Positions 164-32,873 of a stretch of 33,373 nucleotides of DNA are shown here, one piece after another. The position numbers were made by a program, and so were the translations under genes. The stretch lies in the NCBI GenBank assembly GCA_003990745.1, contig RBNI01000331.1, forward strand, positions 1-33,373. Reading direction: 5' to 3'. How positions within the stretch are numbered: position 1 is the first letter of the stretch; each line of letters opens with the position of its first letter. Source of the stretch: Jimgerdemannia flammicorona. Lineage: Eukaryota > Mucoromycota > Endogonomycetes > Endogonales > Endogonaceae. The notes below the pieces were generated by a model. The model was not told where the DNA came from. It worked only from the letters and a program-made list of their open reading frames with translations, and searched no databases.

Positions 164-1309
164 ATGGCCACTACAGATATTGAATACTACAACTCTAAGC
201 ATCTCCACAAGATATGCAACAATAATTTTGAAGTGAACATCTCGGATTTGAAATCACTCAGTTTTAAACTGACTACCTTTGAGAGTGGGTTTCTCCATAT
301 CATTCAGCCAGACAACAGTGATGATAACATCTGTGTCTCTATTAGCAGTTTTGCTGACCACAAGGATTTGATTGAGAGAATACAAATAACACCCACTACG
401 GGTAGAAACAGCTTCAGTTTAGTTATTGACAATCAACCGATTAGTAGGAATACCACATTCGACATCAATGATCGCTTGCGTATCGAAATGGTGGTAACCA
501 TCCCAATCTCGCTAGACCGTCTCGAAGAATTGCGACTTGAGAGCAATGGACAGAATATCAAGATCTTCGATTTGAAGGGGCTCTTTACAGAGTCTTTTTG
601 GGCAAATACAAATTCAGGCAAAATTTTCATCGACAATTACCTTCGTACCTCTGTCATCTCCCTCAAAACTGCCAGCAGCATTATCGGCCCTATGTTTCTC
701 TCTGCAACCACGTTGCTCTCTGTCTCAACAGTGAGCAGTGATATCAAGATCCAACAACAGCACAGCAGCACAATGTCATTGGCATCACTTGAGACAATCT
801 CAGGTAATATCAAGGGCAGTTTTATGGCATGGCAGTATTTCACAGCTAAAACTATCAGCAGATCAGTGGATGTGGCAGTGAACATGTCAGAATTAAGCTC
901 GCAGCCAAGTGTCAACTTGCTGACCGTTAGTGCAAGAGAGTTGATCGTGAGGTAGCTGAAACTGTCAAGCATTTCTGGTCCCATCAAACTGCAGCTGGAT
1001 TCTGAGAACAAGGCACTTAAGGTCATGGGATCGACCGTCTCAGGCAATATAACAATCGATTTTCTTCACCCCTTTGCTGAAGATTTCATGCTGACTACTC
1101 TTTTCGGTGATATATATATACAAACCTCCAACAACTACAGTGTGGAGTACTGGGAGAAAATGGAGACCAAGTTGTCAGGGTTGGTTAACATACCAGGAGT
1201 TAATTATACTGCGTCAATCCAATTGAATATGACGTCTGGAAACATACAATTGAATTTATCAACAGCCGGTGTCCTTAGAACTCATAATTATATAAAACAA
1301 CTTGCATGA
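164..1309 (+). pseudogene. DUF4097-type (putative adhesin) protein, interrupted by one in-frame TAG
   Basis: The frame runs 381 codons without indel but holds TAG at 953-955 (codon 264); the same frame continues to TGA at 1307-1309. The C-terminal half repeats the short motif S-x-S/V-G-x-I (for example SISGPIKLQL, TVSGNITIDF, TSGNIQLNL), which is typical of the beta-strand ladder of the DUF4097 family of fungal and bacterial proteins. No signal peptide is visible, so location is unknown. The start ATG at 164 is the first in frame and follows AT-rich leader sequence. The TAG could come from CAG by one transition. The gene may be inactive, may be translated as a 263-residue fragment, or may be read through or edited. 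Family assignment rests on the repeat pattern only. Confidence 0.6.
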
Positions 1310-1962
1310 TTACTGATCTTGCCAGTTGTTTTAATATTGTATTTAAAAACATATGCTTTTATTATGATATACACTTGCCAATGTGATAGGACTATCAATA
1401 GGTTATATGTATTATGTTACTGTTCAGAATCTGGATATATTATAAACAAATCGTGTGATTGAATAAAACCTATTAACATTGGAGAAATCCATACTGAATC
1501 TGAGATGTGGTAATCGAATTTTTGGGAAATATTGAAAGGTAAATATACATATTGTCAACACTACCAACTAACAGTTGAAATAGCAACTATAAATTCTTTG
1601 ATTATTATTTAAAACGAATATTGACAAATCATTTTCATGACTAAATACAATTATATAATTGTGAGTTAACAGTGCATTGATAAATATATTCTAGTTGAGG
1701 ATATATAGTTTTCCTAATGTTTTATAGATCGTAACGATTTTTGATTAAACCATGCTATTTGGATTTATCAAACTTAAACAATATAGCATGGTTTAAAGTC
1801 ATTTTCGTTTTTGAAAAATGGGATTTCAGTACATTTTATACATGTGAACAATCAGTACCTGTGTATATAAACAATATCCTTCAAAACATTATTGTTATAT
1901 TTTAAAACTGCATACACAATATCGATATTTTAATCCAACTGCGGATATTTCGCATATTGGGC
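1310..1962. other. Intergenic, AT-rich, with one long-loop inverted repeat
   Basis: No gene is seen. It contains a perfect 14-bp inverted repeat, TTAAACCATGCTAT at 1745-1758 and its complement at 1783-1796, separated by 24 bases. It lies between the converging 3' ends of the DUF4097 gene and the secreted helical protein, so it probably holds both polyadenylation regions. Confidence 0.5.
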
Positions 1963-2868
1963 CTAAAGTTCGTTAATGGCTTGATTGACTAGTTTAACAT
2001 AGCTACATGTGATACTCTTCCCCAAAAGAGGAGTCTTGACAGTCTGGCGAATAGTACCCACTTGCTCTCGGAACTTACTAAGGGCATTAGACATAAATAT
2101 CAACTCATTCATGTGTGCTATGCGTGCCTCCTCAAACATCTGGAGCATGTCCAGGTTGTCAGTTAGCAGTTTTCTTTGCATGTGGTTTATGCCCCAGTCA
2201 TTCCAGACCTTTGCAAGGGATGCACTTTGTTCACATTGCACATTATTCTCTTTGACAATGACTTCGTAAGCTTTGGCAAGGCATACATCCATCTCTACAA
2301 AGTATTTGAGAACAATCCCCACCTGAGAATCGAGAATTTGCATGCCATTGTTCACGTCAGTCATGGCATCCTCGAAGATTAATGCTAAGTTTGTCAGGAG
2401 CATAGCATCGGTATCACCCTTCAGTTGCATCAGATCCCGCCGGATCATCCGGCTGCATTCGATGAGGAGGCAGAAAATGATGGATGCCCTAGCCTCCAGC
2501 ATTTCCATGCTGTAGGCTGCCTGAGTTGTGACCTTCCACAGTTGATTCAATGAATTTACAAAACTTCTCCTGTTGTTGGGGCTCAAGTCTGAATTCTTAA
2601 CCAGTGACTCGAGGTTGTGTATCGCTGACCAAGTTTTGAGTAACTCTTGACTATAATTTCCATGCAGGGTCAGATCATAGGTCTGCACAGTCTCTAAGTA
2701 TACATTAAGATGTGTAATTATATTGTGGATTTCAATGAACTGAGGAGGTGGTAGTGGTGTGCAGGCATGACCAAGCACTTGCACTGCGGAAAACTGGCAT
2801 ATAACATCAGTGGAAATAGGGAATAGGGCCAAGAGGCATCCGAGCCCTAGCACTAAACTCGACGCCAT
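1963..2868 (-). CDS. Secreted alpha-helical protein of unknown family (301 aa)
   Basis: An uninterrupted frame of 301 residues. Residues 1-25 form a clear signal peptide: a short N-terminus, a hydrophobic core (LVLGLGCLLALFPI) and a polar end. The rest is rich in Leu, Met, Glu, Asn and Lys with heptad-like spacing and predicted helices throughout (for example around residues 60-150 and 210-270), with five or six scattered cysteines. No catalytic motif is visible and I do not recognise the family. Signal peptide plus helix suggests an extracellular or vacuolar protein. It is one of few genes here without an in-frame stop. A neighbouring helical protein at 6166-6726 looks similar in style but I could not align the two. 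Confidence 0.65.
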   Translation of the reverse strand: MASSLVLGLGCLLALFPISTDVICQFSAVQVLGHACTPLPPPQFIEIHNIITHLNVYLETVQTYDLTLHGNYSQELLKTWSAIHNLESLVKNSDLSPNNRRSFVNSLNQLWKVTTQAAYSMEMLEARASIIFCLLIECSRMIRRDLMQLKGDTDAMLLTNLALIFEDAMTDVNNGMQILDSQVGIVLKYFVEMDVCLAKAYEVIVKENNVQCEQSASLAKVWNDWGINHMQRKLLTDNLDMLQMFEEARIAHMNELIFMSNALSKFREQVGTIRQTVKTPLLGKSITCSYVKLVNQAINEL

Positions 2869-4682: not shown

Positions 4683-4731
4683 TTAAAGACTAATGAAACG
4701 TGGGGTGGTAAATTGCTGTAATTATAGTGTC

Positions 4732-4788
4732 GGGGAAAGTGCATTCACATGGATGGGATAATCCCATCCACGTGAATGCACTTTCCCC
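4732..4788. repeat. 57-bp palindromic element, copy 2
   Basis: GGGGAAAGTGCATTCACATG on the left and its near-complement on the right around ATGGGATAATCCCAT. The ATG of ubiquitin-like copy 1 begins two bases after its right end. Confidence 0.9.
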
Positions 4789-4789
4789 A

Positions 4790-5203
4790 ATGCTGACGCC
4801 ACTCCTGAAACTGACCAACATGGAGATAAATATGACTAAAAACAAGATGACTGAGACCCAGACTAAGGTCAAGGAGGAGATGAAATATGTTGTTAGGTCT
4901 GGTGAACTAAGGGATGATGACCGTCGTGGTGTGGTGGAAACGTAACCCGAATTCATCACCTTTATGGTTCGATGGTTGAACGGCACATCCCACACCATCA
5001 GGATAGAGAAAATGTCCAATATTGGCGAATTGTTGCACACGCTTGAGACGCAGCATAATCCGGGGGGTAAAGATTTCATTCTGAAGAGGAAAGATGACGA
5101 CAAACTTATCCCAATAGATATCAATGATGAGAGCGTCACCCTGGAGAAACTTGAAGTCACTCCTCAGTGGATCCTTATCATGGAGCTGGATCCAGAATCT
5201 TGA
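4790..5203 (+). pseudogene. Ubiquitin-like (beta-grasp) small protein, copy 1, with in-frame TAA
   Basis: The frame starts ATG at 4790 or 4820 and ends TGA at 5201-5203, with TAA at 4943-4945 just before the conserved domain. The domain (about 78 residues, 4946 on) shares with the three other copies the order W-L-[ND]-G-T, K/E-x-x-x-N-I-G, the block HNPGGKDFILKRKDD, the pair DESVTLEKLEV and a final W-x-L-I-M-E. Alternating strands, one helix after N-I-G and the length suggest a ubiquitin-like beta-grasp fold; no di-glycine tail is present, so it is unlikely to be conjugated. The N-terminal 40 residues are charged and differ between copies. Function is unknown. Confidence 0.5.
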
Positions 5204-5344
5204 GGTTCCGTGTGCAGCCAAGGTATATCAGCAATCATGTATTGAAATAAATTATATGCCATATCATAGACATTATAATTAAACGTTACACAACTAAACA
5301 TAAATACTCTGGATGGAACCACTTCATCATCATCCTTGTAACAA

Positions 5345-8530: not shown

Positions 8531-8609
8531 TTTAAGGACTATTGTTACTATTGGCAAATAAAATCGAATTCACACAATAAGCAATAACGTTAATTGTGAT
8601 GTCGACATT

Positions 8610-8666
8610 GAGGAAAGTGCATTCACATGGATGGGATAATCCCGTCCACGTGAATGCACTTTCCCC
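8610..8666. repeat. 57-bp palindromic element, copy 4
   Basis: Same element, with GAGG instead of GGGG at the left end and GGAT opposite GTCC (a G-T mismatch) inside. It lies between the preceding gene's end and the membrane protein. Confidence 0.9.
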
Positions 8667-8751
8667 AATAATACATGTAATATAGTTCCGCTTTAACAAT
8701 TTGTGTCATCATTGTGTCGACAAAATCATATGGTGTTATATATATATATAA

Positions 8752-9366
8752 CACAATTGTAAGGTACTACCAAATGCACATATTATTATAAATCTATTCA
8801 ACGGCATTGGGGCCGGCCTCGGTGGTATTACCATTATAATTCTAATAGCCTTTGGGATTGTTGCCATACTGCTCAATATCTACAACATAGTGAATGCCTC
8901 TAATGGTATTAAAATATACCCAATCATATAACTGTGTTGGGGTGGCGGACAGCTCTACACATTTCTGATCGGCGTCATCGTCAGTGCTGCACTCTCTCTT
9001 GTCCACATGCTTGCAGTCTGCTGTCGCCCAGAGTCATCCAACAACCAGCACTTGTCTAGTAGAACTATGGATAGTTTAATGGGCATGTTTTTGCTTATCT
9101 GGACTATTATAGATAGGCGACCTTATACACCCACTGCACTGCTGTCCCACCAGTTTGTCCAGGCTGTAACATATCTGTTTGAACTAGGTACTGTCTGGGT
9201 TTCGAGTGCCTGCTCATGCCAATCAGAGTTTCTATCCTTCTACGAAATGGTCATGCGATCGCTCATAATTATATACATTAACTGTGTAGTAGGATTGATC
9301 ATAGTTATTTTTGGCCACTCAGCTCTGTGTTGTATTAGGCTTGGTAATGCCACCCCATCTGTCTGA
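8752..9366 (+). pseudogene. Multi-pass membrane protein with in-frame TAA
   Basis: An open frame from 8752 to TGA at 9364-9366, with TAA at 8929-8931. Hydrophobic segments: around 8800-8880 (GGITIIILIAFGIVAILLNI), 8950-9020 (FLIGVIVSAALSLVHMLAV), near 9085-9110 and 9255-9340 (IIYINCVVGLIIVIFGH), giving about four membrane passes. A Cys-rich stretch (ACSCQSE) lies between the last two. No ATG opens the frame; either a 5' exon is missed or the start is lost. The TAA falls in a loop after the first segment. The family is not recognised. Confidence 0.45.
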
Positions 9367-9504: not shown

Positions 9505-10563
9505 TTAGCTCGTAGGTGATGATATTGCTTGTGTAATTGTCAGACACATCAATGGAGTTGTGAGTTGCATGCTGCTCCGGGCACCATCATCGTCCCACAG
9601 GGCAACCAACCAACGTGCAGTGAGCATCCAAAGCAATTGTCGTTCTTGTCTCCCGAACGACGCCAATGGCAGCACATCTGTTGGCTTGCTGTGCAGGAAT
9701 CTGTGAAGACAGTTTACACCGACATCGTCAGCCATATGTTTGTACAGCTCGTCATCAACATCATCCACACGCAGGTGGGTGTAGAACTCCAAAGAGAGTA
9801 TATAACAGAGAATCTCATCCATGGTTGCTAGCATGCATCTAAATTTATCACTCAAATACTTCAACATTTGCCGAAGCTAGCCTGGGTGTCTGCCAGATGA
9901 GTTAAAGATAGCATCCAGAATCACACTGCAATCGACAGACTTCGCAACCCATTGACTGATGAGGACGAGTCGCAGTGTCAATGCTGTAACTTTGTTCTGT
10001 GTCAAACCCAGCCATCGCATGCCCATGGTGCAGATGTACTGCAGTAGAAATATGTTGCTGTTGTATTGATTGGGGTCAAGTCATAACAGGAGTAGGATTT
10101 GTAGATGCTGTCCTGACTCCACATATAGACACTGCCAGAAATATGGTGCGTCCAGTCCAGACAGGACATCCACGTCATCGATTATGAGGCGCACAGTCGA
10201 GTTTGCATCTGTGTGTTATAGCCATGTTGTCGTTGGTTTGGCCTTCGTGCGCCAGTAATTGCTGAACACGGTTTCTGGATTTGGCATCCTGCTGTTGATC
10301 ACGAACTCCGACAGCAAAACATACACAACAGATCCCTCGCCGTGCTGCAATCTGATATGCTTGATGAGTTTGTATGCAAGCACAGTTTTGCCTGATGAAG
10401 GTGGACCACAGACGACAAGCATGTTACAGGTCTGCCAAAGATCAAACAGTCCAGTTAGTCGAAGTGGTGAAATGTAACATGCATCATTGACGGTAGTATC
10501 TCTGACATTGTGTCCATCGTCTGCAAACGACAGAGCCTGCACCCGACATAAGATGGGTCTGTG
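9505..10563 (-). pseudogene. P-loop ATPase with Walker A and B, three in-frame stops
   Basis: A single frame of about 353 codons, with TAA at 10216-10218, TGA at 10081-10083 and TAG at 9877-9879 and no frameshift. Walker A is VCGPPSSGKTVLAYK (about residue 45) and Walker B is RLIIDDVDVL (about residue 125), separated by the TAA. Downstream are long helical segments (ALTLRLVLISQW, QMLKYLSDKFRCML). Order and spacing fit an AAA+ or STAND-type ATPase; the layout is loosely like ORC/Cdc6 proteins or the ATPase part of CRN proteins, but I cannot choose. No ATG opens the frame; a 5' exon is likely. The stops are compatible with Gln, Trp or Arg codons changed by one transition. Confidence 0.55.
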
Positions 10564-10723
10564 TCAATGCTGAACTGGTACTCTTTTCAATATTCTTCTA
10601 CTGTGAAGTGTTATCATTTAACAAACAATATAATGCTGATGATGACTCAGATTTATGACAATGTAATAGGTTGTATTTGCTCATTTATTCGGATTGACAG
10701 ATCTCAAACTCATCATTATAACC

Positions 10724-12241
10724 TCAATCATAAGAGGCTTCTTCCATCTCAAAATCGCTATACTCAGCCACAATCCTGGCTGCAGTCTCATCCATTCTTT
10801 TAATTTGCAGGGCCTCAGCTGCTTCTATTCTCAGTTTCTTTGCGTTGTTTCTACTTGGTCTGATTGTCACGTCGTTTTCGTAATCTCTCTGACCATTCTT
10901 GCACAACCCAATGTCAATATCGAATTTATCCAGATAGAATCCAGGTAAGGTCCACTGTCCACAACTGCACAATGTCCCATCTCTGATATGTTTACCCAGT
11001 AATTCTTTGCAGTTGGAGTTGCAATACATGATGTTACCACTTTCTGAAAATGTGTCAGAGCCCCATATCTAGGCCATGGCCTGGATGTGGTATTGATCAC
11101 AGTTAGGGCCAATACCACTCGTTAGGTCTGAAGAAATATAGAAATCGTTATGTAAATAATAGAAAGAGATGTAATTTGAAATTTACAATAATACGCTATC
11201 TTTGTTACCTTTGCTTTTTTGCGAATAGATCATCATGTTATCTAGTCTTGCTAATCTCCATCTGTAGTAGTGGTGGCAAATCAGTTTAATTATCTACCAA
11301 ATAAAAAGACAAAAATTTAAAAAGGCTAAACACCCACTTGCAGTATATACAGCATATTAATGTTTCATTAGGATCCAGTTCCAGATTTCCTGCCTTCACG
11401 CTTTCTGGATCTTTACCGAGGTTATCTATTTTATAAGGCTCGCTAACTGATGTGTGTGATAGCAATTAGGATCTATAGGCATGTAGATAAGCATCAATAC
11501 ATACACACTGAATACACATATAATAGGTTGAGATCAACCAGGAACTTCATGTAGGTTGAGTTACTTGGATCTAACACCATCCCCATATCCTCATACAGAT
11601 CCAGCTGAGCATAGAAACTTGAGTTGGGCCTTCAAAAAAGAGCTAAAATAGTGAGAAAGTGTAGGCAGATAGCATTCATAATGAGAGTATACACGCTATT
11701 ACCCCAGACACACTTTGCCTGACTCCGCATTTTTCTGATCATATCAAGAAGTTCATCAACCAATTTCCCATTCAACAGGTACTTCATGAGATAGGCAACG
11801 ACTAGTGTAACATTGCGTGATATTCCCTGCTCGCAATGCACGAGCACCGGGTTTCCACTAGTATGCGCATCATTAATAAATTGTGTGCCAGAGTCCAGAT
11901 GTTGTATAATGTTAGTATCTTTGTCATCTGGGATGTTGATAACCATGTGTTGCATAACCTACAAGGATGAGGGTTTAATAGTGTATTGAATATACACTAC
12001 ATTTAGTCAACATAGTCGCTTTTCGTACCTTTGGGAAAATGCTATTGGAAGTGTTGCAGACTGACACTATAATGTTGATCCTCTTGTTGTTGATCTCATT
12101 TTGAGATGTAGCAGCATTGAGTCTATTTGGACAGGTTGTTAGTTGTATGTGGATGGGGCTCTAGTTGACTACATTACTCTCAACATACCCGCTTAGGAAT
12201 AGACCATTGAACACTTTGACTGCTAGATCTGCGACTGACAT
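10724..12241 (-). pseudogene. YVH1: Yvh1/DUSP12-type dual-specificity phosphatase, six exons, two in-frame TAG
   Basis: Exons read 12241-12029, 11958-11714, 11629-11505, 11446-11338, 11261-11209 and 11127-10724. The five introns (58-84 bp) all have GT...AG and the total is 1149 bases, exactly 383 codons, matching the usual Yvh1 length. The phosphatase loop is VLVHCEQGISRN (HC-x2-G-x-S-R). After it comes AKPNSSFYAQLDLYE, the family's P-N-x-x-F-x-x-Q-L block, created by splicing. The C-terminal zinc domain is present: CCIYCKWRLARL, then YCNSNC and LCSCGQWTLPGF. Yvh1 is a conserved phosphatase acting in late 60S ribosome assembly. TAG codons sit at 12161-12163 (exon 1) and 11069-11071 (exon 6). 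Everything else, including splice sites, looks functional, which makes old pseudogene status odd. Confidence 0.8.
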
Positions 12242-15868: not shown

Positions 15869-15959
15869 GACGCTCACATCACAAACATATATGTGGCTGT
15901 CACGGTCAATAAGATGTATTATAAATAAATACCACTACAACCTTCCACCTCTTCATTAA

Positions 15960-19781: not shown

Positions 19782-19836
19782 TGTGGTTGGGGTATGAATT
19801 TGTTAGATCACAATAGAAGATGTGATTTTGAGCATC

Positions 19837-20571: not shown

Positions 20572-20575
20572 AGAT

Positions 20576-20659
20576 TGCCCTAAAGTGGATTCAAACCACT
20601 ATCCAACTGCAACAGTATATGTGTAAATCAGTTGCTCTACCAATTTGAGCTACTAGAGC
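20576..20659 (-). tRNA. tRNA, probably Val (anticodon TAC), with a short intron
   Basis: Cloverleaf on the minus strand: acceptor GCTCTAG pairs with TTAGGGC (with G-T pairs) and discriminator A; D stem GCTC/GAGC; T arm AGTGG-TTTGAAT-CCACT. The anticodon loop begins TTTACA, giving TAC (Val), followed by a 10-base intron at the standard site. The anticodon stem has one A-G mismatch next to the loop. Internal promoter boxes are present (TAGCTCAAATTGG; GGTTTGAATCC, where the usual C is T). A run of six T follows on the minus strand (20566-20571), a good RNA polymerase III stop. It could be a mildly decayed copy. Confidence 0.6.
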
Positions 20660-21025: not shown

Positions 21026-21484
21026 CTACTGATTGAGTTTACACTTTATCGCTTTAGTTATCTCCAGATATATGGAAACAGGTATTATTCTGACTAATGC
21101 TAACCCTATAGTATGACCATGGTCAACTGACATACTACTATTCCCATTGAGTATCCTGTCATCGTCAATGGCGAATACATACTCCTTCAGCATAAACTGC
21201 ATGATGCCAACATCCATGGCTTTGGCGAACGACAGAAATAAGGATATGGTACAGATGAGTCTGTGGAATGCCCACATAATCAGCTTTGGATACTGTCTCA
21301 CCGCGAGGTGCTGTGCCATGTCCGTAAGTATTTGGAAATGATTTTCGGCATCCAAGTTGGAGTTATAATAGAAGTAAGGTTGGTGGTCATCATCGGGTCT
21401 GTACGTTTGATTGACAAATATGGGGGGGGGGGGTATGCTCGAAGAATGGCTATTCAAGAAGAGGTTTAGGCACTGTTGTTTCAT
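21026..21484 (-). CDS. Small protein of unknown function (152 aa)
   Basis: Uninterrupted frame from ATG at 21482-21484 to TAG at 21026. The N-terminus has a proline run encoded by a long C tract (plus-strand G run at about 21422-21431), which is prone to length error. Residues 75-105 include a hydrophobic helix (LICTISLFLSFAKAM) that could be membrane-associated. No motif is recognised. Confidence 0.4.
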   Translation of the reverse strand: MKQQCLNLFLNSHSSSIPPPPIFVNQTYRPDDDHQPYFYYNSNLDAENHFQILTDMAQHLAVRQYPKLIMWAFHRLICTISLFLSFAKAMDVGIMQFMLKEYVFAIDDDRILNGNSSMSVDHGHTIGLALVRIIPVSIYLEITKAIKCKLNQ

Positions 21485-21822
21485 AGGAGATAGATGAGCG
21501 ATCGTTCACTTTATATTTTACCAAAATCTACTACTTCTGAGATGTGTTTTGAAATCTCTACATATCCCTTAGTTCCTTCATTATCAGATAAGCAAGAATC
21601 CTTTTTTATTTAGTGACCTGTGGATGAGATATATATAGTTGTGATGTCTGCTCGGGGAAAGTACATTCTTCCGCATACAAAACAACAATACTAATTACCA
21701 TTCACCATAGGTACCACTAATACACATCTATATGTAATCACATGACAGTATGCCTTTTTATTAGTGTATAATTCACGTGATATAAACAGTCTAATTACAG
21801 TCTCTGATACTGAACTGTATTG
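21485..21822. other. Intergenic with a left half palindromic element
   Basis: GGGGAAAGTACATTC at 21654-21668, preceded by GATGTCTGCTC, matches the left arm of the 57-bp element; the right arm is absent. No gene is seen. Confidence 0.45.
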
Positions 21823-22686
21823 ATGTTGTTTATTATGGAGGACATTCTCACCAGGTTCTGTACAGCTACATGCCCATTCCTCCCTCTCGATCTCCGTGAA
21901 CCCTTCACGTCTGCACTCTCCCAATTTTCCGCTGTCATCACCCTCTGTGATTCCTTGACAGATGTTGCTCTTGTCCACAAATACCTGAGTGACAGTGTCG
22001 TCGTGCTTGTTCACTCCCATGAGGTCAAAACTCCCACACTACAAAGAGTGACCATTAACAGTAACGAGACCACTACCAAGATGCCAGATGGGCAAAAAAT
22101 AACCTCTAAAAAGTGAGCACTAAAAGGTTAGTCTATCCTATATTTTATTAATATAAACAAATATGATGCAATTGGTCACTTATGTATTTTTTGAGGGGGT
22201 CTAGGTATTGATAAACAGGATACAAAACATGTGCTCGACAAGAATGCATTCATTAAGACTGTTCAATATGCCCAACATCTTGCCAAGGACTCTGAATTTA
22301 TTGCACCAACCCTTCCCATTATTGAAAACTATACACTTGCCGAGATAGAATATTATCATCGCCAATCTAATATAGACACTACACACGGTCTAATTGTTCA
22401 ATACCTGCTTGGCAGACATGTGGACTGAATTACCAGGGAGCTACCAGAGGGAACAAGAGTGACTTGAGATATAACATTCAGCAGACAATATTGGACAGAA
22501 GCAGGTCTTGATTTTTCTGTGAATATTAGGAGTCGGATACACCAATCGCGACTTGTTTACAGTATTTTAAAAAATCTTACTGTGGGGGAGGTCTTGGCAA
22601 TTCATGAGATTATAGTATCGCATTTATTCAATATTAGCCACGATGAGGCCAGACAGCTCTGTGTGGCGATTTCTAGCAATATATAA
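21823..22686 (+). pseudogene. Two-exon protein of unknown function with three TGA codons
   Basis: Exon 1 is 21823-22126 (ATG at 21823 or 21835) and exon 2 is 22205-22686, with a 78-bp intron GTTAGT...CTAG; the phase is kept. In-frame stops are all TGA: 22114-22116, 22426-22428 and 22465-22467. The terminal stop is TAA at 22684-22686. The protein looks helical (KTVQYAQHLAKDSEFIAP, LVYSILKNLTVGEVLAIHE) and no domain is recognised. Use of only TGA inside and TAA at the end is notable but the numbers are small. Confidence 0.45.
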
Positions 22687-22733
22687 ATGTATATCTATTA
22701 GCCAAATGTCAACCCTGTGTTATGTGTAAATTC

Positions 22734-22790
22734 AGGGAAAGTGCATTCATGTAGATGGAATAATCCCATCCACGTGAATGCACTTTCCCC
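22734..22790. repeat. 57-bp palindromic element, copy 6
   Basis: Full-length copy with GTAGATGGAATAATCCCATC in the centre. Its right flank (ACCGCAGTTGTATGCCCAGT) is shared with copy 7. Confidence 0.85.
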
Positions 22791-23052
22791 AATGACCGCA
22801 GTTGTATGCCCAGTAGGACTGTTGTGCACCCATGGCACAGGACTTGGATGGTGTGACAATTAAAATATTGTCTACACACAATATAGGATCATTATTGTCA
22901 GGTTTGGTCACCACGAAATAATCTAATAGTTCCTACATATTGTTTGTGGGGGATTAAAAATAGTGTTTCTTGTTATACATCACACATTTATTCAATTGAT
23001 CGCAAATGTTTGTACAAATTGATTGTTTTAATACAAACACATATTCATAATT
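22791..23052. other. Repeat flank and intergenic sequence
   Basis: The first 70 bases match the flank of palindrome copy 7 (23980-24040). A 63-codon minus-strand frame (22954-23145) competes with the plus-strand exon below; I favour the latter because of its splice sites. Confidence 0.35.
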
Positions 23053-23415
23053 ATGTCTAATTGAAGTTACACCACTAGTGAACTGCTCAGGCCTGTGAAT
23101 AGATATATAGCTCTTGAATTGATATACCCAGGCCTTAAATGCCATCTAGAACATTGACTTTGTTAGTATATACAAATATATTAATGCCAACAACACCTGT
23201 CATTTTGGCTGTACTTTTTAGGTGATTCTGAAACATTGCATATCATGTGTGATAAATATAGAAGGGTTCCGAGCCCCTCAGAATACATTTTCAGGAAGAG
23301 AGTTAATACACCAGACCTAGTATTTAATTACCAGAAAACACTTCACGGTATTACCGAATTGCTGCTCATATTGACAAGCATCACATCAAACAATATGAAA
23401 AATTTATTTGAATAA
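23053..23415 (+). pseudogene. Short spliced gene of unknown function with two TGA codons
   Basis: Exon 1 is 23053-23161 and exon 2 is 23222-23415, with a 60-bp intron GTTAGT...TTTTTAG that keeps phase. TGA codons at 23062-23064 and 23155-23157 interrupt exon 1; exon 2 is clean for 63 codons to TAA at 23413-23415. Exon 2 reads as protein (LHIMCDKYRRVPSPSEYIFR; TLHGITELLLILTSI). More 5' exons may exist. The family is not recognised. Confidence 0.35.
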
Positions 23416-23456
23416 TGATTCAGAGTAATATTATAAATACTATAGTTCTGAGTTAT

Positions 23457-23849
23457 CTAGAAACTAAGACACCAACTATTTGTTCTAATATCGCTTAGGA
23501 CTGTTGTCAATAATTTAGTGTCTAGATCTGGCTCCATGATGAGCTTCCAATCAGAATTGACTCTGAGATTCTCCATCGTAATGCTTTCATCAGTTATGTC
23601 AAAGTCGACAAGAGATGTATCATTCACTCTCTTTAAGATGAAATCCGTTCCTTTGGGATTGTGGTCTATCTTGAGGATGTGGATCAGGTAGCCTATATTG
23701 TCAGATGTTTCGATTTTGAGTGAATGTATTGTTCCATCGAGCCATTGAATGCTGATTGTCACATATTTTCCACTTCTTTTGTCATTATCATTCATAACCC
23801 CATCATTGTATTGATGGAATCTTATAAAATAATTTTGTTCAGATACCAT
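23457..23849 (-). CDS. Ubiquitin-like small protein, copy 4 (130 aa), apparently intact
   Basis: ATG at 23847-23849 opens a clean frame to TAG at 23457. After a charged 35-residue N-terminus the beta-grasp-like domain reads VTISIQWLDGTIHSLKIE, NPKGTDFILKRVND, ITDESITMENLRV and WKLIMEPD. The stop used by copies 2 and 3 is lost, so about 20 extra residues follow from what is 3' flank in copy 3. It is the only copy with ATG, domain and frame all intact. The palindromic element (copy 7) lies 74 bases upstream of its start. Confidence 0.6.
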   Translation of the reverse strand: MVSEQNYFIRFHQYNDGVMNDNDKRSGKYVTISIQWLDGTIHSLKIETSDNIGYLIHILKIDHNPKGTDFILKRVNDTSLVDFDITDESITMENLRVNSDWKLIMEPDLDTKLLTTVLSDIRTNSWCLSF

Positions 23850-23922
23850 TTAATGAAGGAGTGAATGGTAAAAGGCATTTATTTATAATGTATATCATGT
23901 ATATGTTCATGATGTGAGCATT

Positions 23923-23979
23923 GGGGAAAGTGCATTCATGTGGATGGGATAATCCCATCCATGTGAATGCACTTTCCCT
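23923..23979. repeat. 57-bp palindromic element, copy 7
   Basis: Full-length copy (GGGGAAAGTGCATTCATGTG...), 74 bases upstream of ubiquitin-like copy 4 on the minus strand. The outer flank GTGAGCATT continues the pairing arm. Confidence 0.9.
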
Positions 23980-24168
23980 GACTACCGCAGTTATGCACCC
24001 AGTAACTGGTGTGTGCCCATAGCATGGGACTTGGACAATCAAGCATATACTTTATAAAAGTTTATCAAGTTCATTTTGCTACAATTGTACATTGGATTCA
24101 TCTCGAACAAAGTAAGAAATTGCCTTGAACATTCATTTACAATATTCTATCACTAACACCTATCATTA
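23980..24168. other. Repeat flank and CRN 3' region
   Basis: The first 60 bases (ACCGCAGTTATGCACCCAGT and on) match the flank of copy 6 and, inverted, the tandem repeat at 15811-15868. No gene. Confidence 0.45.
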
Positions 24169-27100
24169 TTATTTATTCTGAAGTCCATACTTTTGTTTCT
24201 ATAAAAAAAAATGGAGTAAATTAAATTACGATATATATAAAATGCCAAACATAATAATATCATTTACACTAACCTTTTCCACTCCACCTCCACTGACTAA
24301 GGAACTTATTTGCTTGGTATCAGGAAGGGGCTTTATAGTTTTAAGTATCGCAATTACCTCTTTGCTGAAAAATGACCTAGCATTTGTGCTATCAATCACA
24401 ATTGTTAGCTCCTGTGTCTCCTCATTGTATCCACCGATAATGGTGGTCTTTGATGGCTGGACAATTAGTATACCAATGGACGATATGACATTAAGTGGGT
24501 ATATATCTGCAAGACATTGCAAAATCTGCTCCCTCTCAACAGTGTATGATGCAGGCTGCTTTTTGTTAGTGAAAAACATTTTGGATGATGTAGTCTTGAT
24601 GGCTGGTTTGGCATCAATTGTCAGAGAAAACTTGGCCTGTACAAATACTGGAATGCGTGTTATATTGTCATCGCTACTGTTATACTCCAGTGGATGCATA
24701 CAAATAATGAATACGACATTAGAACCCGTCTTTTTGGGCAGTATGAGAAATGTCTCACATGGGTCTTCAAGATACGACAACAGATTGCCCCTTCCACAGA
24801 GATTCTCGGGTCTGGCATCACTGTTGCGTCGAAGTACGGTAATCTGGCGGGAGAATACCAGTGCGAGCCACTCATGTTTGTGAATGAATGGCACAAACAG
24901 CAGATGGACGTCTAGGCATAGCTTCGAGTTGCACGTATCGTCAAACAGGTCGAAGAGCGGCTCAAGCAGATACTGTTCAAAGAGATCACCAAGATGCTGT
25001 GGCGCTCAGTGGGCCTGCCTCATTTTTTTGAGCACCATCCGGCTGATGGTTGGATTGTCACGTGGGATGCCGTCGCCATCAAGGCTGTCGCAAATGAGAC
25101 AGAAATATGCCATTGCAGCCATTGGCTCTGATAGCCTGGCCACCACAACTACTGTACCAGCTGCACCATCATCGATGCGGATGAGCTGCACAAACCCATG
25201 CTCCACCGCGAGTGCCTCTTCTTTGAGAATGACAATGTTATCTGAAAATGCGTGGTAGTTGAGCACTGTCTCCTTGATAATTGGCTATATTGTCGACTCT
25301 TCGCGTATCAGCGAGAGACAACCCTCCAGCTGAGTAACCAGGAGGTCCACCGTGCTGTCACGCCAGTATCATATAGTTGTATTTGTGACTGTAGCTGCTT
25401 CTATAGGCCCTTGGATGGCATTTTCCAGGAATCGGATGGTAAACTGATGATGGCCATGGAGATAGTCGAAAACAGACTCGATCTGATTATCGGTGAATGG
25501 CCCGAGAAACTGCTCAACAAATACCCGCATCTCTGAAATGTCATCAAACCCATGTGTGACACTGACAAAATATATCTTGTCAATCGATGCCTTTCCAATT
25601 GTGCTCTCTGTCACATCCATAAGATGGTCGATGCAAAGTCCTGTCCCTGCGAGAATGGTGTATATGACACGGTGTCCACCCACAATTCCCATCACGGTGT
25701 ACAGAAGTATTGTGAAGTATGACCGTTTCGTCGTAGTTGATGTGGTGGAGGGATACATATTCTGCTGCTTGGTGATGGCAATATGTGCCTTGTCCATTGC
25801 AACAGGTAGTTTTGTAGTTTTGGTGTACTCCAGGATTGTGTCAACAGTCTCGATAATATAGGTTTGAATATGGTCAGAATCAGAACCTGCGAATATTTTC
25901 CAGAGATCGATCCAGAAGTCAGGAGGGTCGATGCTGACACTGCTTGGCAACAACTGCATCAGAAGCCACATCTTTGGTGTGAATCTGGACGACCGCATTC
26001 AGGTAAGCTTCTCGAGGATATAGAGATGGACCGCCAGCACAGCCTGAGCCTTGATAAGCACTTTGGCATTGTTGTCCTCCAGTTGGTCGCCACTCAGCCA
26101 CAACAAAACGGAGGCTTTGTCCAAGTCTCCAGACCCCAGATTTCTATCAACACCTCCGGCATTGAGTGTGAGATATATGCCAAATATCCAACAGAACAGT
26201 TCATATATGCTGCACGTTTTCCCAGCTCTATTGTTGTTGAATAAATATAAATTAGAAAGATATATATATATGGTATTTATTGAAAGCCAGTAAAATGAAT
26301 ACTTACTCAGACGTTCCAATCAACATGAGCCACACCTGCTTCAACATCCAGTCATGCAACTCACCAAGCTCATCTTGACCGATAAACCCCAAGTCGTCTT
26401 TGCCTTCCGGTAGTGAATGCAATATCAACGAAGGTGTTCTTCCACCATTTACTGTAGGTATCCTGGCATTATTGATATGTATGGTGTATGGATGATTTTC
26501 TGTCTGATATAGCTATAATGGGAAGCCATTGGCGATTATTGATTCAAACATCGGTCGCCACTCATACCATCGGGCATCTGCTCTGGCTTGGATCATTTCA
26601 AATGATGTATCAATCTTGTCATCCGTCGATGCTGCTGATGATGGCATGTCTATTGCAGTATAAAATAATACATAGAAATTGGGGATCAATCTCAATAGAC
26701 TCTATCATTTTAATTATTATTGTTTATAATATGTTAAGTATTATTTATACTAATATACAGCTATTAGAATGTACATTGTACCATGGGTGTTGTTTCATCC
26801 TAGTATAAGGACATTTCAAATTGCATCGTATTGGTGAAATTAACCTCCCTCCATACCTCCGCATGGCATTTGCAATCAAAGTCACCCTCTAGAGACTATC
26901 ACCACGCCACCCATTGTTGACTATATTTGTAGTCTTTTTTTGCGAGAGTACCAGCATATCTTCAATAGTGCGATTTGGGGCTCCCAATATTGATGGTCCA
27001 TGTGAGTCATCTGTGAGTATAACAATGATATTGTCAGAATATGATATATAATATATATTGATAGTTAATGATTTCAATATCTAACCATTACCTGCGAGCG

Positions 27101-27482
27101 CTTGTGCAGGCAATCTGATGACAGGTTCAGTATATTCAATAATAACATGAATATTTTTTTTGTCTAGCTGGAGTGGGAAACATTCTCTGATCTCAAACAG
27201 TATCGGTAGCTCTTTGCCACCCAATGCATCAGTGATGGTGGAGTTGGGGTGGACTTGTAATGCAGTGAGCCTATCATTCGGCATATAGAGGGGTATGTTG
27301 ACCTTCCAGAGAGTGAGTTCATTGATGGTGACATGATCAAAGCATGGGACTAGCTTTGCCTTGATATGTTCTCGTAGATTGTCAATACTGGCATTTTGGT
27401 GAATTGTGATGGAAAACACATGTCTGGAAGGAGGGGTCTTGCCGTGGACAAGACAGTTGAGCATGATACTATCGGTCGACAT
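24169..27482 (-). pseudogene. Crinkler (CRN) effector-type protein, five exons, six in-frame stops
   Basis: Exon 1 (27482-27092) encodes the ubiquitin-like CRN N-terminal domain with the hallmark INELTLWKVNIPLYMP. Exon 2 starts at 27010 and its end is uncertain (26950-26890). Exon 3 is 26649-26307, exon 4 is 26227-24274 and exon 5 is 24198-24169. Introns 1, 3 and 4 are 81, 79 and 75 bp. The Walker A motif GTSEAGKTC is split by intron 3. The C-terminal part has IPVFVQAKFSL, the Q-x-K strand of the PD-(D/E)xK nuclease-like domain found with P-loops in fungal CRNs, and a TIVIDSTNARSFF block. CRNs were first described as oomycete effectors that act in host nuclei; in fungi the role is less clear. 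In-frame stops: TAG 26889, TAG 26513, TGA 25999, TGA 25369, TAG 25285, TGA 25006. No frameshift is seen. Confidence 0.75.
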
Positions 27483-27812
27483 TCTGTATATATATAGTAG
27501 ACCTTTGTTAGAATTGATATAACATTCTGGTAGAAATGTGTTCAGTTTATACAACTTACTGTAGTTGTGATTGTCGCACTATCAAACTAGTTATGGTTGC
27601 ATGTTAACTAAAGTGGCTTGATATTAGAGTCAACAAATTATATTGGAGACATCACGCATTCCTTATTAACAGTCTTACTTCGAAGTCACAACCGAACCAT
27701 TGTGGAAACGTAGTGGCTGAGACAACCATATCCAGCCACTGTTTTTGTATAGAAATAAATTATATAAAGGTCATTACTGCACAGAAATAATTGTATCCTC
27801 TGTCTGTGTGCC
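27483..27812. other. Divergent intergenic region between the CRN and F-box-like genes
   Basis: 330 bases holding both promoters; no repeat or motif that I can support. Confidence 0.4.
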
Positions 27813-29156
27813 ATGAGCCCAATTTTTGCAGAAGTCTTCCTAAACATATACATCCTCCTCAATAGAAGATGTGATATATTTGCAATATCTCTTACCTGTC
27901 GTATATTCAGACAATATACCAACCTGCCTCTTGCGCAAGCACACTTGCTTATTACACTATTCAGCAACACCATATCTCTGGCCTATGGTATCGCACTGCT
28001 TCTACATCTCATTGATAATAGGACGTGTGAACTGCTTAAATACCGTGGTGCAGTAGTCACATCCCGCATATTGGAGGCAGCTTATTTCATCTCAGTTATC
28101 AATAATGAGACCAAGCAAGCAATCATCGAATGGTTTGCCAGATGCCAGATCGTGCTGCCCACAGACCATATTTGGCTCCAAATCTGTACAGAAATGGATG
28201 CATGGACACATACTCACCCAGCAGTGGGGATACCACGTGACAGTCAAGCCATAGAAGACTTCATCCAACATATGGATTCTGGAGACTTTGTTCCAATCTC
28301 TTTCTTCAAGTACCACATGATCGAGGGAGAGCCTGTACAGTGCTGGCAGATACTTAATAACCAGAAATCAAATGGAAGCCAGGAATTGTGGACAGATCTT
28401 CTCTGTCTTGCAACCATCTTGGCCCCTGAGGCATTGGAGAGGGCAGTCGGTCATGGATACAGAGTGCCAGACTGGCCTGGACAGGATGTGTTTGAATGTC
28501 TCTGTGGTGCTGCAATACTGTATGGTCTGTCATATGTAGAGACAGGAGCCATGATGACAATGCTCATCGACTATGGGCTCGTGCATTTAGATGATGAATA
28601 CATTACCCAACATTCGCTTACACCAGAGTGCAAACTCATCTTTCACTATATAATGGCAGAAAGCTGTGTACCAGCCATCGAGGCAGCCACAACAATTGGG
28701 ATTGAGCAGTATGTTGCTATATTTATGACACTAGATGAGCCTGATGATGAAACAATCGAATACATGGAATACCTCAAACAGCAAGTACCGTCATGCACAT
28801 CTCACATACAGAATGCAATTGAACAATATGCGGTACCAAACCACAACAATAGTATGCCTGGAAAAATCAGATATACTTGCATACCAAACCAGCTTGCTTT
28901 GTGGATACTGGAGCAATGGCCTCATCCTGGCCATATCACCAGACCGGTCTTTGACAATCTTGTATTAAGCATGATCAGAGATCATGAGATGTCAGGTGTT
29001 GTATCAAAATACCTTAAAGAAGGGCACGTATTCTCTGACAGACATCGAGAGTGGATTACCAACAGTCCAAGGAATTGGGCACTCATCACGATCTGGAGGA
29101 GCACAAAGACACAGCCACCTATATGGCTGTGGGCCCAGTCAGGACACCTTCTGTAA
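27813..29156 (+). CDS. F-box-like protein with helical repeats (447 aa), intact
   Basis: The longest clean frame in the window, ATG at 27813 to TAA at 29154-29156. Residues 1-45 fit an F-box (IFAEVFLNIYILL then CDIFAISLTCRIFRQY). The remainder is helical with loose repeats that resemble divergent ankyrin or TPR units (LLKYRGAVVTSRILEAAYFI; AMMTMLIDYGLVHLDDEYIT). An SCF adaptor role is an inference. There is no intron and no internal stop, in contrast to the F-box/LRR genes, so this copy is presumably functional. Confidence 0.65.
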   Translation: MSPIFAEVFLNIYILLNRRCDIFAISLTCRIFRQYTNLPLAQAHLLITLFSNTISLAYGIALLLHLIDNRTCELLKYRGAVVTSRILEAAYFISVINNETKQAIIEWFARCQIVLPTDHIWLQICTEMDAWTHTHPAVGIPRDSQAIEDFIQHMDSGDFVPISFFKYHMIEGEPVQCWQILNNQKSNGSQELWTDLLCLATILAPEALERAVGHGYRVPDWPGQDVFECLCGAAILYGLSYVETGAMMTMLIDYGLVHLDDEYITQHSLTPECKLIFHYIMAESCVPAIEAATTIGIEQYVAIFMTLDEPDDETIEYMEYLKQQVPSCTSHIQNAIEQYAVPNHNNSMPGKIRYTCIPNQLALWILEQWPHPGHITRPVFDNLVLSMIRDHEMSGVVSKYLKEGHVFSDRHREWITNSPRNWALITIWRSTKTQPPIWLWAQSGHLL

Positions 29157-29320
29157 ATGAGTGAAATAGATAATTTACTCCATATGACGTGTGTTCCAAT
29201 TAGAGAGATACACTATAGTCGACAATTGAGTTTCTTAGATGATATACCCATTACCGTTTAGTAAGAAAGAGTCAAATAATGTCTGAGTGACGTTTGCTGA
29301 TAAATGAGTTTATTGTAATT
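29157..29320. other. Intergenic between converging genes
   Basis: AT-rich 3' regions; nothing else seen. Confidence 0.4.
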
Positions 29321-30513
29321 TTACATGGTCGCATGTTCCCAAATATGTACTACCTTACTGCTCTCCAATACCCAGACAGGACACAACATACTTTGTTGAC
29401 GTATAGCATCTGCAAGAAGGACATTGTGTATCTCATGCTGCCTAATCGCTACTAGGACGTTGTTGGCAATCTGATCCAGATGGTGATTATAGTGGGTAAA
29501 GAGAAGCACCTTCTTGATGTTTAGTCTGGATAATGGTATAAGGGAGTATGAGGTGTGGGATAGCCAAGATTATCAATCTGATTTACTATAATGCTTGGAT
29601 ATTGTACCTCTGCAGTACACCCATTACGTATGATGGTTCCTCTCGCAGCTTCATCCTCGTTACAGGTTTAGTAAAATCGACAAGAGAGCCACTGATGAAT
29701 AAGACCAGATTGACTCTGTGTTTCGGTTGGCTGCCAAAGACAGTATTAATGAACTTTATAGATATAATAATAAGTATAATATTTTGATAAAAACAAGACT
29801 GAATATACCAAATATAATTTTGCCTACATTTTCAAATGAGATGGCCCATAGCTGTCTATCTCTATTATTATAAGCCCACAGTGTGCCATCATTATGAGTG
29901 TGTGTTGGAACCAGCAGCCACTTGCTTGCCTCCAGTTGCCATCTTAATGAGGAAAATCATATAGGTTTAGACAGTTGTCATAATCTGAATGTTAATCGAG
30001 AATATAAATTTAGTTCACCTCTTATCAATATCGTTTGCTACTGTCCCAAGCATGTTTTTATTCAAAATCAAGTTTTTTGTAAAAAGTACTTGATCATTCT
30101 GTACCAGTATTATCATGGTTAAATATAGCATTTATATACTTTGCAATATATCCAGCATCTGGACACGTACCATATATGTTGTGAATGAAGACATAGTTGC
30201 AGTCTTGAGGATCCTCCATTCGGTGAAGGATGCAAGTTCGATTGTCTGGATATCAATATAGCAGTTGCTATCATAATAGGTAATTGTATTAGATCTACCA
30301 TCATCATATTTCTAAAATTTGACATCCACCCATATGGTATTGAGTTACAAAGCTACCCTCAATCCATTTGTCATCATGCAGGTATACCTGGTCATCTGCG
30401 TCATTGACCCTTCTTGGGACCCAGAGTTCAACTGTTTTGCAGCCTGTCTATTGTGTGTCATCGTATCTATAATAGAGAGGAATGTGATGCATGATGTCAC
30501 AGTAAACAAGCAT
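29321..30513 (-). pseudogene. Six-exon protein of unknown family (270 aa), one in-frame TAG
   Basis: Exons: 30513-30388, 30311-30171, 30098-30019, 29942-29828, 29753-29608 and 29525-29321. The introns are 76, 72, 76, 74 and 82 bp, all GT...AG with good sites (GTATAC, GTACGT, GTGAAC, GTAGGC, GTACAA), and the exons sum to exactly 271 codons. TAG at 30448-30450 is the only internal stop. The protein is Trp/Asn/His-rich (KWLLVPTHTHNDGTLWAYNN; HRVNLVLFISGSLVDFTK; KVLLFTHYNHHLDQIANN) and looks like a compact globular enzyme or binding domain, but I recognise no family. The frame is open a little upstream of the ATG chosen (then TGA), so more 5' sequence may belong to it. Confidence 0.55.
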
Positions 30514-30738
30514 GATATGTGGCTTGGTGTCATGTGACCCAACCAGAAGTCACATAAAACTAAATATATATCTCAGTACATACACCTAACCATGTCTACC
30601 AAATATCTGTGAAATGCTCAGGGGTGCTTTTGCACCCTAGACGAATATCTCAAAGAATTGATTAAACAATGTCTAGTATCTAATATGCTATTTTCAAACA
30701 CAGATACCACCTTCTATGCCTGACTCAAGGAACTAATT
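30514..30738. other. Intergenic between divergent genes
   Basis: AT-rich; no supported feature. Confidence 0.35.
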
Positions 30739-31608
30739 ATGTCAGTTCCTACACAACAGGAGCTGGCAAGCTATAGACCTTATTATTATTATTATTTTGT
30801 ATCCTCTTTATCATCCTTTATTCATTTTTTTCAGCACTATACACAGGAGCCTGAAATACCTACCCCCATACAATATGCTCATAAACATCTTCATGAAGAG
30901 GAAGGGGATGATGGTGAAGGTCCATCTGCTCCAAAACATGTTCGCTTTGAAAAGTTATTCCTATTTTCACAAATCCTAATTATATCAGTCAGTCATTTAG
31001 TAATATCCTGGTATATTTTATAGGATTGGCCATCCCCCCCTCCCCACCACCGCCACTGCAGTATCTTGAAGAATAACCAACAAGTACCTCTACAAACTGA
31101 TAGAAGCAGGTCTCCAACTCTGCCAATCCATGAGCCCACAGAGAATGAGCTAGCCCAGGCGGAGAACTTCAGGACTACTGTTGCAGAGGTGGTAGCTGAT
31201 CCCTCACCAGCCCAGCTGTCTACTCTGAGAGAAACATACTCACCAGATACACTTGGTGGGCTGTTTGGCTCTATCCTAACTGCCCTGAAAGTAGCTGGTG
31301 TATCATTCCCTTCAAGTAGTCTTAAGGGTGCTTTGGATCAACTGATTGCAGTAAAAAAGTTTCAATGCTCACTCAGGGGGCCAGAACAAGCTTGCTATGA
31401 ACAGCAGATCAGGCAATGCTTTGGTTTGGAAATTTTAATCTTTGTTACAAATATGATGTTTCCACTATATTTTGATACTCAGGTGGTAAAACAAGAGTAT
31501 GGAGCACTATACTCTTGTATATGCATTGCATATGAGCTGGCCCGCACACTACCTGTAATGCCATTTTATGCAGTCGTTAACAAGAAACTTGTTATAGTAG
31601 ACACATAA
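30739..31608 (+). pseudogene. Proline/glutamine-rich N-terminus plus helical domain, one TAG or an intron
   Basis: ATG at 30739 opens a frame that reaches TAG at 31021-31023 and continues in the same frame to TAA at 31606-31608. The stretch before the TAG (about 30950-31020) is AT-rich, hydrophobic in translation and ends TATAG, so an intron of 70-82 bp is likely; GTTCGC near 30942 gives the right phase, GTTATT at 30954 does not. A pyrimidine-rich site (TTTTTTTCAG, about 30833) may mark another intron. The C-terminal half is helical (TLGGLFGSILTALKVAGVSF). No family is recognised. Confidence 0.45.
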
Positions 31609-31798
31609 CAAATTGTATAATTGCAATAGATAGATTGCTATAGTATTATATTATCTGTCAGTTCAGTATAATTAATAGTCATTGATATATAAATTTCAGA
31701 TAACATATATACATCTTATTCTTCAATATTCGTTAGACTGCTGACACACTTCAAAGAGGACTGTTTTAACAGTTTTAGAACTCCCAATAATGGAAAGA
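31609..31798. other. Intergenic
   Basis: AT-rich 3' region of the gene to the left; no feature seen. Confidence 0.35.
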
Positions 31799-32873
31799 GC
31801 TAAGAAGAACACAAAGTTGGGAAGAGTTTTGTCAACATGTCCTTGTTTAAGAGGTCTCTCCACACAATGTCTCCTGCCTCAAAATCACCAACAAGACTAA
31901 TATCCCCACAGTCTGTGTAAGTACCCCTAAAATGTAATTTATTATATGACTGTATATTTCCAATAAACAGGTACAGTCTATCAAATTATCTGTGAATAGG
32001 TGGATGGCTTCTTCATACCAATCATATACCACGACACTCTTCACACTCTGGTCCACATTCTGGCTCATCTTCGGTGACTCTTGGCAACCAGAAGGTGTCA
32101 ATGAGAGCAAAGTCTGTACATGCCTTTGCTAGACTCCATTGGTGTTCCACCTCTGGGTGAAGGATTCCACACATGAACTCGGAAAACCCAGGAGTACAGT
32201 TATACTGGAATGCGCTGTCATTATCGAACACCTCATTAATGATTGCCTGTTTACCACTGAAGATCGACACTTGGTTCATAAGAACTTGGTACAGAGTGAT
32301 GCCGAAGGACTGCACATCGGATTTTTCCAGGTTGGATTGCTGCTGTGTGTTGTATTCTTTACCAGTATGAATTATTATACAGTCAAAGTCAAAAAGCTTC
32401 ACTTCTGATATATTGTCTGAGTGGAATGTGTAAAATATACTCTGTGGCTCAAGGTTGTGGTAATATATGCCACATCCATGAAGATAATATAGAACGTCAA
32501 GGACTTGAGAGAATATGAATTTGATATTCATTTGTACGTTGAGGTCATCCACCATCACCTGACATTCACCCTCCTTCGGCATAGATATGAATTGACTGTA
32601 TAGAGAGCTAATCACAGGCTCCATGAGTAGGTATATTGCATTCTGGTCTTTGTGGTGATGAATAACCCTCCTGATGTTGGGATGTTAGACTGCTGAAAGG
32701 TTGTTGCCGATGCACTGGTTGTCAATGACTTTTAGAAAATGCACAGTTCCATCACTTGCTCTGGTCTTGTATATAGCGCTGTTCATCCCCTTGAGGATGG
32801 GTTCACTAATGATAATGACACCAAACATGTGGGTACTGGCATTTGGCTGTGGAGGTTGTTCGAGGTACAGCAT
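31799..32873 (-). pseudogene. Protein-kinase-like protein, probable pseudokinase, one in-frame TAA
   Basis: The frame from ATG at 32871-32873 to about 32022 contains TAA at 32685-32687, placed directly before HPNIRR, the conserved H-P-N-I of kinase strand 4, where Gln or Lys would be normal. N-lobe: VHFLKVIDN supplies the lysine of strand 3. C-lobe: VLYYLHGCGIYYHNLEPQSI is the catalytic loop, but Asp and Lys of HRDLKxxN are replaced by Asn and Glu, and the final Asn by Ser; DFG reads DFD (KLFDFD). SDVQSFGITLYQVL fits helix F. These changes predict a weak or inactive kinase. A 3' exon (DCGDISLVGDFEAGDIVWRD, about 31800-31915) probably follows one or two introns. Exact 3' exon limits are uncertain. 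Confidence 0.6.

Follow-up and report, generated by a model that had tools for sequence, protein, structure and literature searches.

The in-frame stop codons that interrupt a series of gene frames on a 33,373-nucleotide contig of the fungus Jimgerdemannia flammicorona (GenBank RBNI01000331.1, assembly GCA_003990745.1; the whole contig, C331 in our numbering, is referred to here as the window) were mostly left by C-to-T mutation, chiefly at CG sites, in an additional copy of a segment rich in genes; they are largely missing from a better-preserved sister and so speak for decaying duplicates, not for a novel reading of stop codons. The segment is duplicated elsewhere in the assembly (134.8 Mb in 7754 contigs), the window differs from the better-preserved copy by an excess of C>T changes of marked direction and context, and the number of stops rises across copies as CpG is lost. 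It is probable that the depleted copies are cytosine-methylated, silenced duplicates in which deamination of 5-methylcytosine has produced the stops; the methylation, the silencing and the deamination chemistry are the parts of this explanation that we infer.

The course of events would be as follows. In this Endogonales-like fungus a long segment rich in genes exists in at least four copies, counted over the right part of the window. Three of them, the window included, are depleted in CpG through C>T change, with a sister copy retaining far more. The depleted copies would be kept cytosine-methylated, at CpG first and at CpA second, as silenced duplicates. Over time 5-methylcytosine would deaminate to thymine, turning sense codons into stops, in frames on which constraint acted during some of the time since the copies diverged.

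Copies of the Segment

In blastn comparisons, window positions 122-21433 are collinear with and inverted relative to contig C79, and positions 21427-33069 likewise relative to C1532. These two contigs adjoin at a run of ten G residues in the window and thus make up a single sister copy, inverted, that spans almost all of it. Both end at this run (21423-21432), which is probably an assembly break. The right part is also found on C392 (window 26274-33069) and C3179 (26359-33069), and a segment beyond it is common to C1532, C310, C3179, and C392. Relatives of C1532 stand at 87-92% identity. The terminal stretch of the window, 33070-33373, matches C310:462-765 at 97% identity, compared with only 87-92% between the adjoining DNA and its copies; it is either a younger repeat or a junction at which the copy continues on another contig.

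Substitution Spectrum and CpG Content

Substitutions were counted where an alignment block exceeded 700 bases. Between the window and C79 there are 1419 transitions, 253 transversions, and 81 indels (transition:transversion ratio 5.6), and between the window and C1532 there are 712, 104, and 34, respectively (ratio 6.8); the corresponding counts are 656, 107, and 49 against C392 and 532, 64, and 22 against C3179. By site, C/T differences amount to 48% at CpG, 15% at CpA, 12% at CpC, and 6% at CpT. Relative to C79 the window has lost 484 CpG and gained 62, and this direction is reversed relative to the more depleted C392 (15 lost, 70 gained). When C>T changes are polarised from C79 and C1532, the rate is 0.307 at CpG (797/2599) and 0.110 at CpA (CAH 0.117, CAG 0.084), falling to 0.033-0.034 at CT, which is a roughly ninefold bias of CpG over CpT; the most affected context is ApCpG, at 0.43.

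The ratio of observed to expected CpG (CpG o/e) is 0.97 in C79, 0.84 in C1532, 0.61 in C310, and 0.49 in the depleted copy that makes up positions 122-33069 of the window. A lower group comprises C3179 and C559 (0.39 each), C484 (0.30), and C392 (0.22). For several contigs the value refers to a part only (37500 of 44358 bases in C79, 22800 of 33947 in C310, 26700 of 30505 in C484, and 10000 of 29358 in C559). Within the window the depletion extends to each 2-kb bin (0.19-0.65). The C>T changes are not clustered along the segment, 300-base bins showing no excess variance. A clustered, strand-coordinated deaminase was considered and rejected on this ground and because the slight excess of same-strand C>T on C79 (fraction 0.495 against 0.468, standard deviation 0.014) disappears when CpG is removed (0.507 against 0.521); on C1532 the fraction is at the null value.

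Comparison of Four Copies

Seven frame segments lie in the region common to four copies, and in these the number of stops climbs as CpG o/e drops: one stop in 1446 codons in C1532 (CpG o/e 0.68), five in 1448 in the window (0.35), 10 in 1424 in C3179 (0.34), and 18 in 1444 in C392 (0.11). Contigs C310, C484, and C559 were profiled for CpG only and are outside the stop count. Changes were called private where three copies stood against one. Private C>T, T>C, and transversions number 122, 17, and 14 in the window and 64, 52, and 32 in C1532, against 139, 37, and 26 in C3179 and 241, 69, and 56 in C392. The window thus has fewer private transversions than its sister yet twice as many C>T changes (Fisher p = 2e-5), which indicates a faster C>T process and not a greater age. 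The context of the private C>T changes follows the same division, with rates at CpG and CpT of 0.123 and 0.014 in the window, 0.14 and 0.014 in C3179, and 0.351 and 0.027 in C392, whereas in C1532 they are context-free (0.021-0.035). The stops occupy 29 distinct positions, of which 24 occur in a single copy, five are common to two, and none is found in more.

The original prediction, made from the window alone, had preferred stop-generating transitions as the source of the stops. Substitution type, the precedence of CpG among contexts, the direction of change relative to the better-preserved copy, and the graded series of four copies all support this.

Stop Codons in the Frames

The yardstick for the stops was a set of 33 frame segments of the sister (C79 and C1532), hand-picked by strand and plausibility from a longer list of stop-to-stop open reading frames of at least 90 amino acids and projected onto the window. 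The absence of these stops from the sister is therefore by construction, its open frames having served as the yardstick. The sister is itself imperfect, carrying, besides its one stop in the shared region, another between the segments of a BTB gene. Over 7149 aligned codons the window has 37 stops in frames open in the sister (12 TAG, 18 TGA, and 7 TAA), of which 26, judged from their positions, are well inside the frames (10 TAG, 11 TGA, and 5 TAA). Seven were set aside as upstream of the first methionine, intronic, or uncertain (7506, 8123, 8749, and 10564, and doubtfully 5411, 13914, and 21039, the last adjoining indels), and four as close to the end of a frame or exon (1963, 3506, 6724, and 22114). 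C>T or G>A alone separates 31 of the 37 from the sister, and the other six involve a transversion.

The count resembles in order and mix the roughly 32 stops (13 TAG, 13 TGA, and 6 TAA) first estimated for the window, although it uses the 33 sister-based segments and not the exact 16 gene models of that estimate. The fourth exon of the Crinkler gene does contain four internal stops (25006, 25285, 25369, and 25999), where random sequence of like composition would give 35.9 over 651 codons. That frames remain protein-like past a stop also held where testable: both flanks of the stop at 953 match the Toastrack domain DUF4097 (E 5.5e-5, which narrowly passes the curated cut-off, and E 2.6e-4, which narrowly misses it), and the sister gene is a single open frame of 390 codons. 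The figure of only three clear indels was too low, since 42 were counted against the sister inside the 33 segments, 38 of which shift the frame, with nine and seven falling in two single segments. The premise that neutral decay should bring many frameshifts is weakened once the C>T excess is left aside, transversions outnumbering indels against C79 by 253 to 81.

Constraint on the Frames

Decay of the frames was simulated neutrally with the sister as starting point and the measured context rates, in 400 runs. The simulations gave 88.5 stops (standard deviation 8.5) at noncoding rates or 79.5 (7.7) at all-site rates, against the 37 observed; the nonsynonymous to synonymous ratio was 2.25 or 2.26 (0.12) when simulated and 2.00 when observed, a value as low being reached in 1.5% or 1.0% of runs. 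About a quarter of the C/T differences (517/2131) run opposite to the assumption that the sister is the ancestor, so the expected number of stops is somewhat too high; we estimate that correction would bring it down to about 60-67, which also exceeds 37. A trimmed set (6148 codons, 31 stops) shows 7 CAR to TAR changes against 21.6 expected at noncoding rates, and 21 against 28.2 for the missense control CAY to TAY. CGA to TGA changes number 9 against 16.1 expected, with 16 for CGA to CAA, and the control CGB to TGB 44 against 57.9.

Indels are also rarer in frames than outside them, at 33 in 13897 against 51 in 6835 bases for C79 (2.37 and 7.46 per kb) and 9 in 7576 against 25 in 3441 bases for C1532 (1.19 and 7.27 per kb), although noncoding sequence may be more indel-prone. 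Coding and noncoding divergence are 0.0857 and 0.0771 in one comparison and 0.0738 and 0.0747 in the other, and divergence at the three codon positions is 7.9, 7.0, and 9.5%. With stops at about half of the unconstrained expectation, constraint, mainly against truncation, has acted during part of the divergence or persists on some frames. Some, such as that at 27768-29156, may still be used. This deficit adds to the earlier reading and runs partly counter to a picture of dead genes: the suggestion that the frames were silenced recently is only partly sustained as regards "recently," because the stops amount to about half of those that unconstrained C>T decay would leave.

Housekeeping and Crinkler Loci

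As a contrast, 12 TCP-1 and 10 HSP70 matches were inspected, and no clear exonic stop was found in these 22. Three of them have one TAG each. These had been candidates for a genome-wide stop signal, which was rejected on inspection of the DNA: one TAG is intronic, and each of the other two stands at the opening codon of its match, where a splice acceptor would place it. CpG o/e at four HSP70/TCP-1 loci is 1.05-1.10. Internal stops occur in 19 of 76 Crinkler matches. CpG content was compared for 20 stop-free (the best-scoring) and five stop-bearing Crinkler loci, two methyltransferase loci, one HSP70 locus, and TCP-1 loci (one plus two). It is at least 0.83 in 16 of the 20 stop-free Crinkler loci and 0-0.05 in four of the five stop-bearing loci examined out of the 19.

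Methyltransferase Genes

A search with the general cytosine-5 methyltransferase model PF00145, made exon by exon and not aimed at RID, found two loci over the cut-off, L062 (G000:C4112) and L063 (G000:C1512), each with further weak pieces and each with a CpG o/e near 1. The motif-I exon of one matches PDB entries 9baq and 9bap over 29 residues (E 3.3e-4), which are described as DIM2 structures in passages of PMC11315935. The other has a weak match to DNMT1 (E 0.0076), and its motif-I piece is similar by eye. Published passages on Phycomyces blakesleeanus describe DNMT1-class and DIM-2 enzymes (PMC13297926, PMC7862722) and a CG methylation that exceeds the non-CG (PMC7862722).

Gene Content of the Window

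The window contains Crinkler, BTB, protein kinase, dual-specificity phosphatase, ankyrin-like, and Toastrack genes; introns between frame pieces were placed by eye. The Crinkler gene (24176-27578, minus strand, five segments) belongs to its family by the PF20147 N-terminal domain at 27084-27578 (E 6e-16; 59.5 bits, cut-off 24.6) and carries, besides the four stops in its fourth exon, those at 26513 and 26889. The BTB gene (16818-18458, plus strand; BTB E 1.2e-11) has stops at 17721, 18108, and 18153, and its sister counterpart only the one stop between its two segments. The protein kinase gene (32025-32903, minus strand; Pkinase E 9.8e-13) has a single stop at 32685, and the sister is open over 293 codons. 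The Toastrack gene (164-1309, plus strand) is interrupted only at 953-955; a piece of it has two relatives in a database of 5.8 billion proteins, both from J. flammicorona (53 and 58%).

A frame that looks membrane-like by eye (8581-9363, plus strand) has a stop at 8929-8931, and a further one, at 8749, upstream of the first methionine; the sister is open over 265 codons. A frame resembling a P-loop NTPase (9508-10581, minus strand; stops at 9877, 10081, and 10216) gives weak nSTAND3 and NPHP3_N matches under the cut-off. Two frames look by eye like F-box/leucine-rich repeat proteins, one at 12406-13627 on the minus strand (stops at 13012, 13192, and 13198; F-box E 0.076 only) and one at 18489-19802 on the minus strand (stops at 18870, 18891, and 19707; sister open, 438 codons). 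Single stops interrupt segments at 4712-5200 (plus strand; 4943-4945), 10791-11195 (minus strand; 11069), and 22195-22464 (plus strand; 22426), and a two-segment frame at 30538-31605 (plus strand) has stops at 30610 and 30721.

The frame of 462 codons at 27768-29156 (plus strand) is stop-free in the window but has one TAA in C1532 and four stops in C3179. A query of 447 amino acids from it found one relative in the same protein database, again from J. flammicorona (82% over 68% of the query). That relative is 87% identical to the sister, 83% to C3179, 82% to the window, and 77 and 79% to C392, in two pieces.

Several smaller elements were noted. An Rfam tRNA match at 20576-20659 (minus strand, 47.7 bits) was not reported by ARAGORN in its bacterial setting. 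A near-perfect palindrome of 57-62 bases, containing near-sites of CACGTG, occurs at 3127, 4732, 6900, 8606, 19832, 22735, and 23918 and on at least 12 other contigs (at least 79 strand-wise matches). Four of its seven sites in the window lie no more than 260 bases upstream of gene starts placed by eye (31, 57, 74, and 259), and it is possibly a foldback or a promoter element. Short related frames at 13973-14268, 15951-16286, and 23525-24019 recur through the segment and resemble one another's repeats on the sister contigs at 77-84% identity, without a Crinkler Pfam match where scanned.

Alternative Explanations

The chief competitor of passive deamination is a homology-triggered, CpG-directed system akin to repeat-induced point mutation (RIP), in which a RID- or DIM-2-type enzyme would mutate duplicates in bursts. 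We regard it as possible, though unlikely. The C>T excess does lie in duplicated segments, the private changes of the window against those of its sister speak for a fast process, C>T is raised at CpA as well, and a DIM-2-like gene is present; against this, CpG and not CpA leads, the private changes of C1532 are context-free despite its close relatives, and in passages of PMC8298701 DNMT5 and RID are described as lost in sister clades in Mucoromycota. Plain pseudogene decay, driven by ordinary mutation alone, would agree with the similar divergence of coding and noncoding sequence and the small differences among codon positions. It is nevertheless very unlikely given the transition:transversion ratios, the CpG bias found in the CpG-poor copies and absent from C1532, and stops at half the neutral expectation. 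The same shortage of stops, and frames that go on beyond them, might suggest functional genes whose stops are read through, recoded, or edited in the mRNA, but stop positions mostly private to one copy, none being common to all four, argue against this, as do the 38 frame-shifting indels in the same segments, the increase of stops with CpG loss, and the clean HSP70 and TCP-1 matches, which together make such an origin extremely unlikely. Artefact, whether from consensus errors, deaminated specimen DNA, or mixed nuclei or strains, deserves mention in so fragmented an assembly, where C1532 and C79 abut at the G run and different nuclei might contribute some of the copies as alleles. However, four distinct copies over the right part are not a single allele pair, and errors would neither yield four CpG-graded copies nor spare HSP70 and TCP-1, nor fit a CpG content low in every bin of the window; this origin is extremely unlikely.

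Several observations sit uneasily with methylation and deamination of silenced duplicates. The C>T rate at CpA exceeds that at CpT by a factor of three, a pattern not expected of a pure CpG maintenance methylase, and the sister itself falls below a CpG o/e of 1 where the four copies overlap (0.68). Free decay would have left more stops and frame indels than are seen. The remaining four stop-free Crinkler loci have a CpG o/e of 0.51-0.71, and one stop-bearing locus, L058 (G000:C6194:2650-3550), has three internal stops at a normal 0.97; C>T does not explain these, and they possibly reflect an intron read through. The loci of the CpG contrast were, moreover, not a random sample of the genome.

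Comparison With Known Systems

Four copies of one cluster represent successive stages of CpG loss, accompanied by a parallel increase in stops, and puzzling stops become a measurable process. The results suggest that duplicated gene clusters, Crinkler genes included, are silenced and mutated in a Mucoromycotina-like fungus; gene predictions in such genomes would include decaying paralogues, and the deficit of stops relative to free decay offers a handle on which copies remain in use. A bolder proposal, and a rather improbable one, is a C-to-T system that senses copies, acts on CpG and then CpA, perhaps through a DIM-2-like enzyme, and mutates every copy of a multi-gene segment but a single master. 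If true, this would be an analogue of RIP acting on Crinkler-bearing clusters in a lineage without detected RIP signatures, these having been undetected in Gigaspora margarita or Mucoromycotina species according to passages of PMC8647823. No account of the pattern seen in these copies stood out for Endogonales among the listed results of full-text literature searches, which mostly exclude subscription journals.

Neurospora-type RIP typically prefers CpA and mutates all copies. The window shares with RIP in Neurospora and other Ascomycota the C>T transitions in duplicated DNA, the creation of stops, and the scarcity of indels, but here CpG comes before CpA and one copy is spared, so RIP of the Neurospora type is a poor fit. 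Decay by deamination of 5-methylcytosine is a closer likeness in that CpG to TpG/CpA changes dominate, ApCpG is highest, the changes are evenly spread, and CpG loss is graded; it differs in the second preference for CpA, in the gene-rich, multi-gene segments struck, and in that methylation is here a presumed step. The RIP-like mutation described in passages of PMC4469406 for Microbotryum lychnidis-dioicae likewise leaves heavily transitioned copies that are mostly CpG-biased, but there it concerns transposons of a basidiomycete and here protein-coding gene clusters. Rhizophagus irregularis is comparable in that it is mycorrhizal, diverged early, and has bimodal CG methylation; so far as the relevant passages of PMC8647823 extend, C>T decay is undescribed in it. 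Set beside these systems, the finding is ordinary in kind but well resolved; what makes it notable is the lineage and the sparing of one copy.

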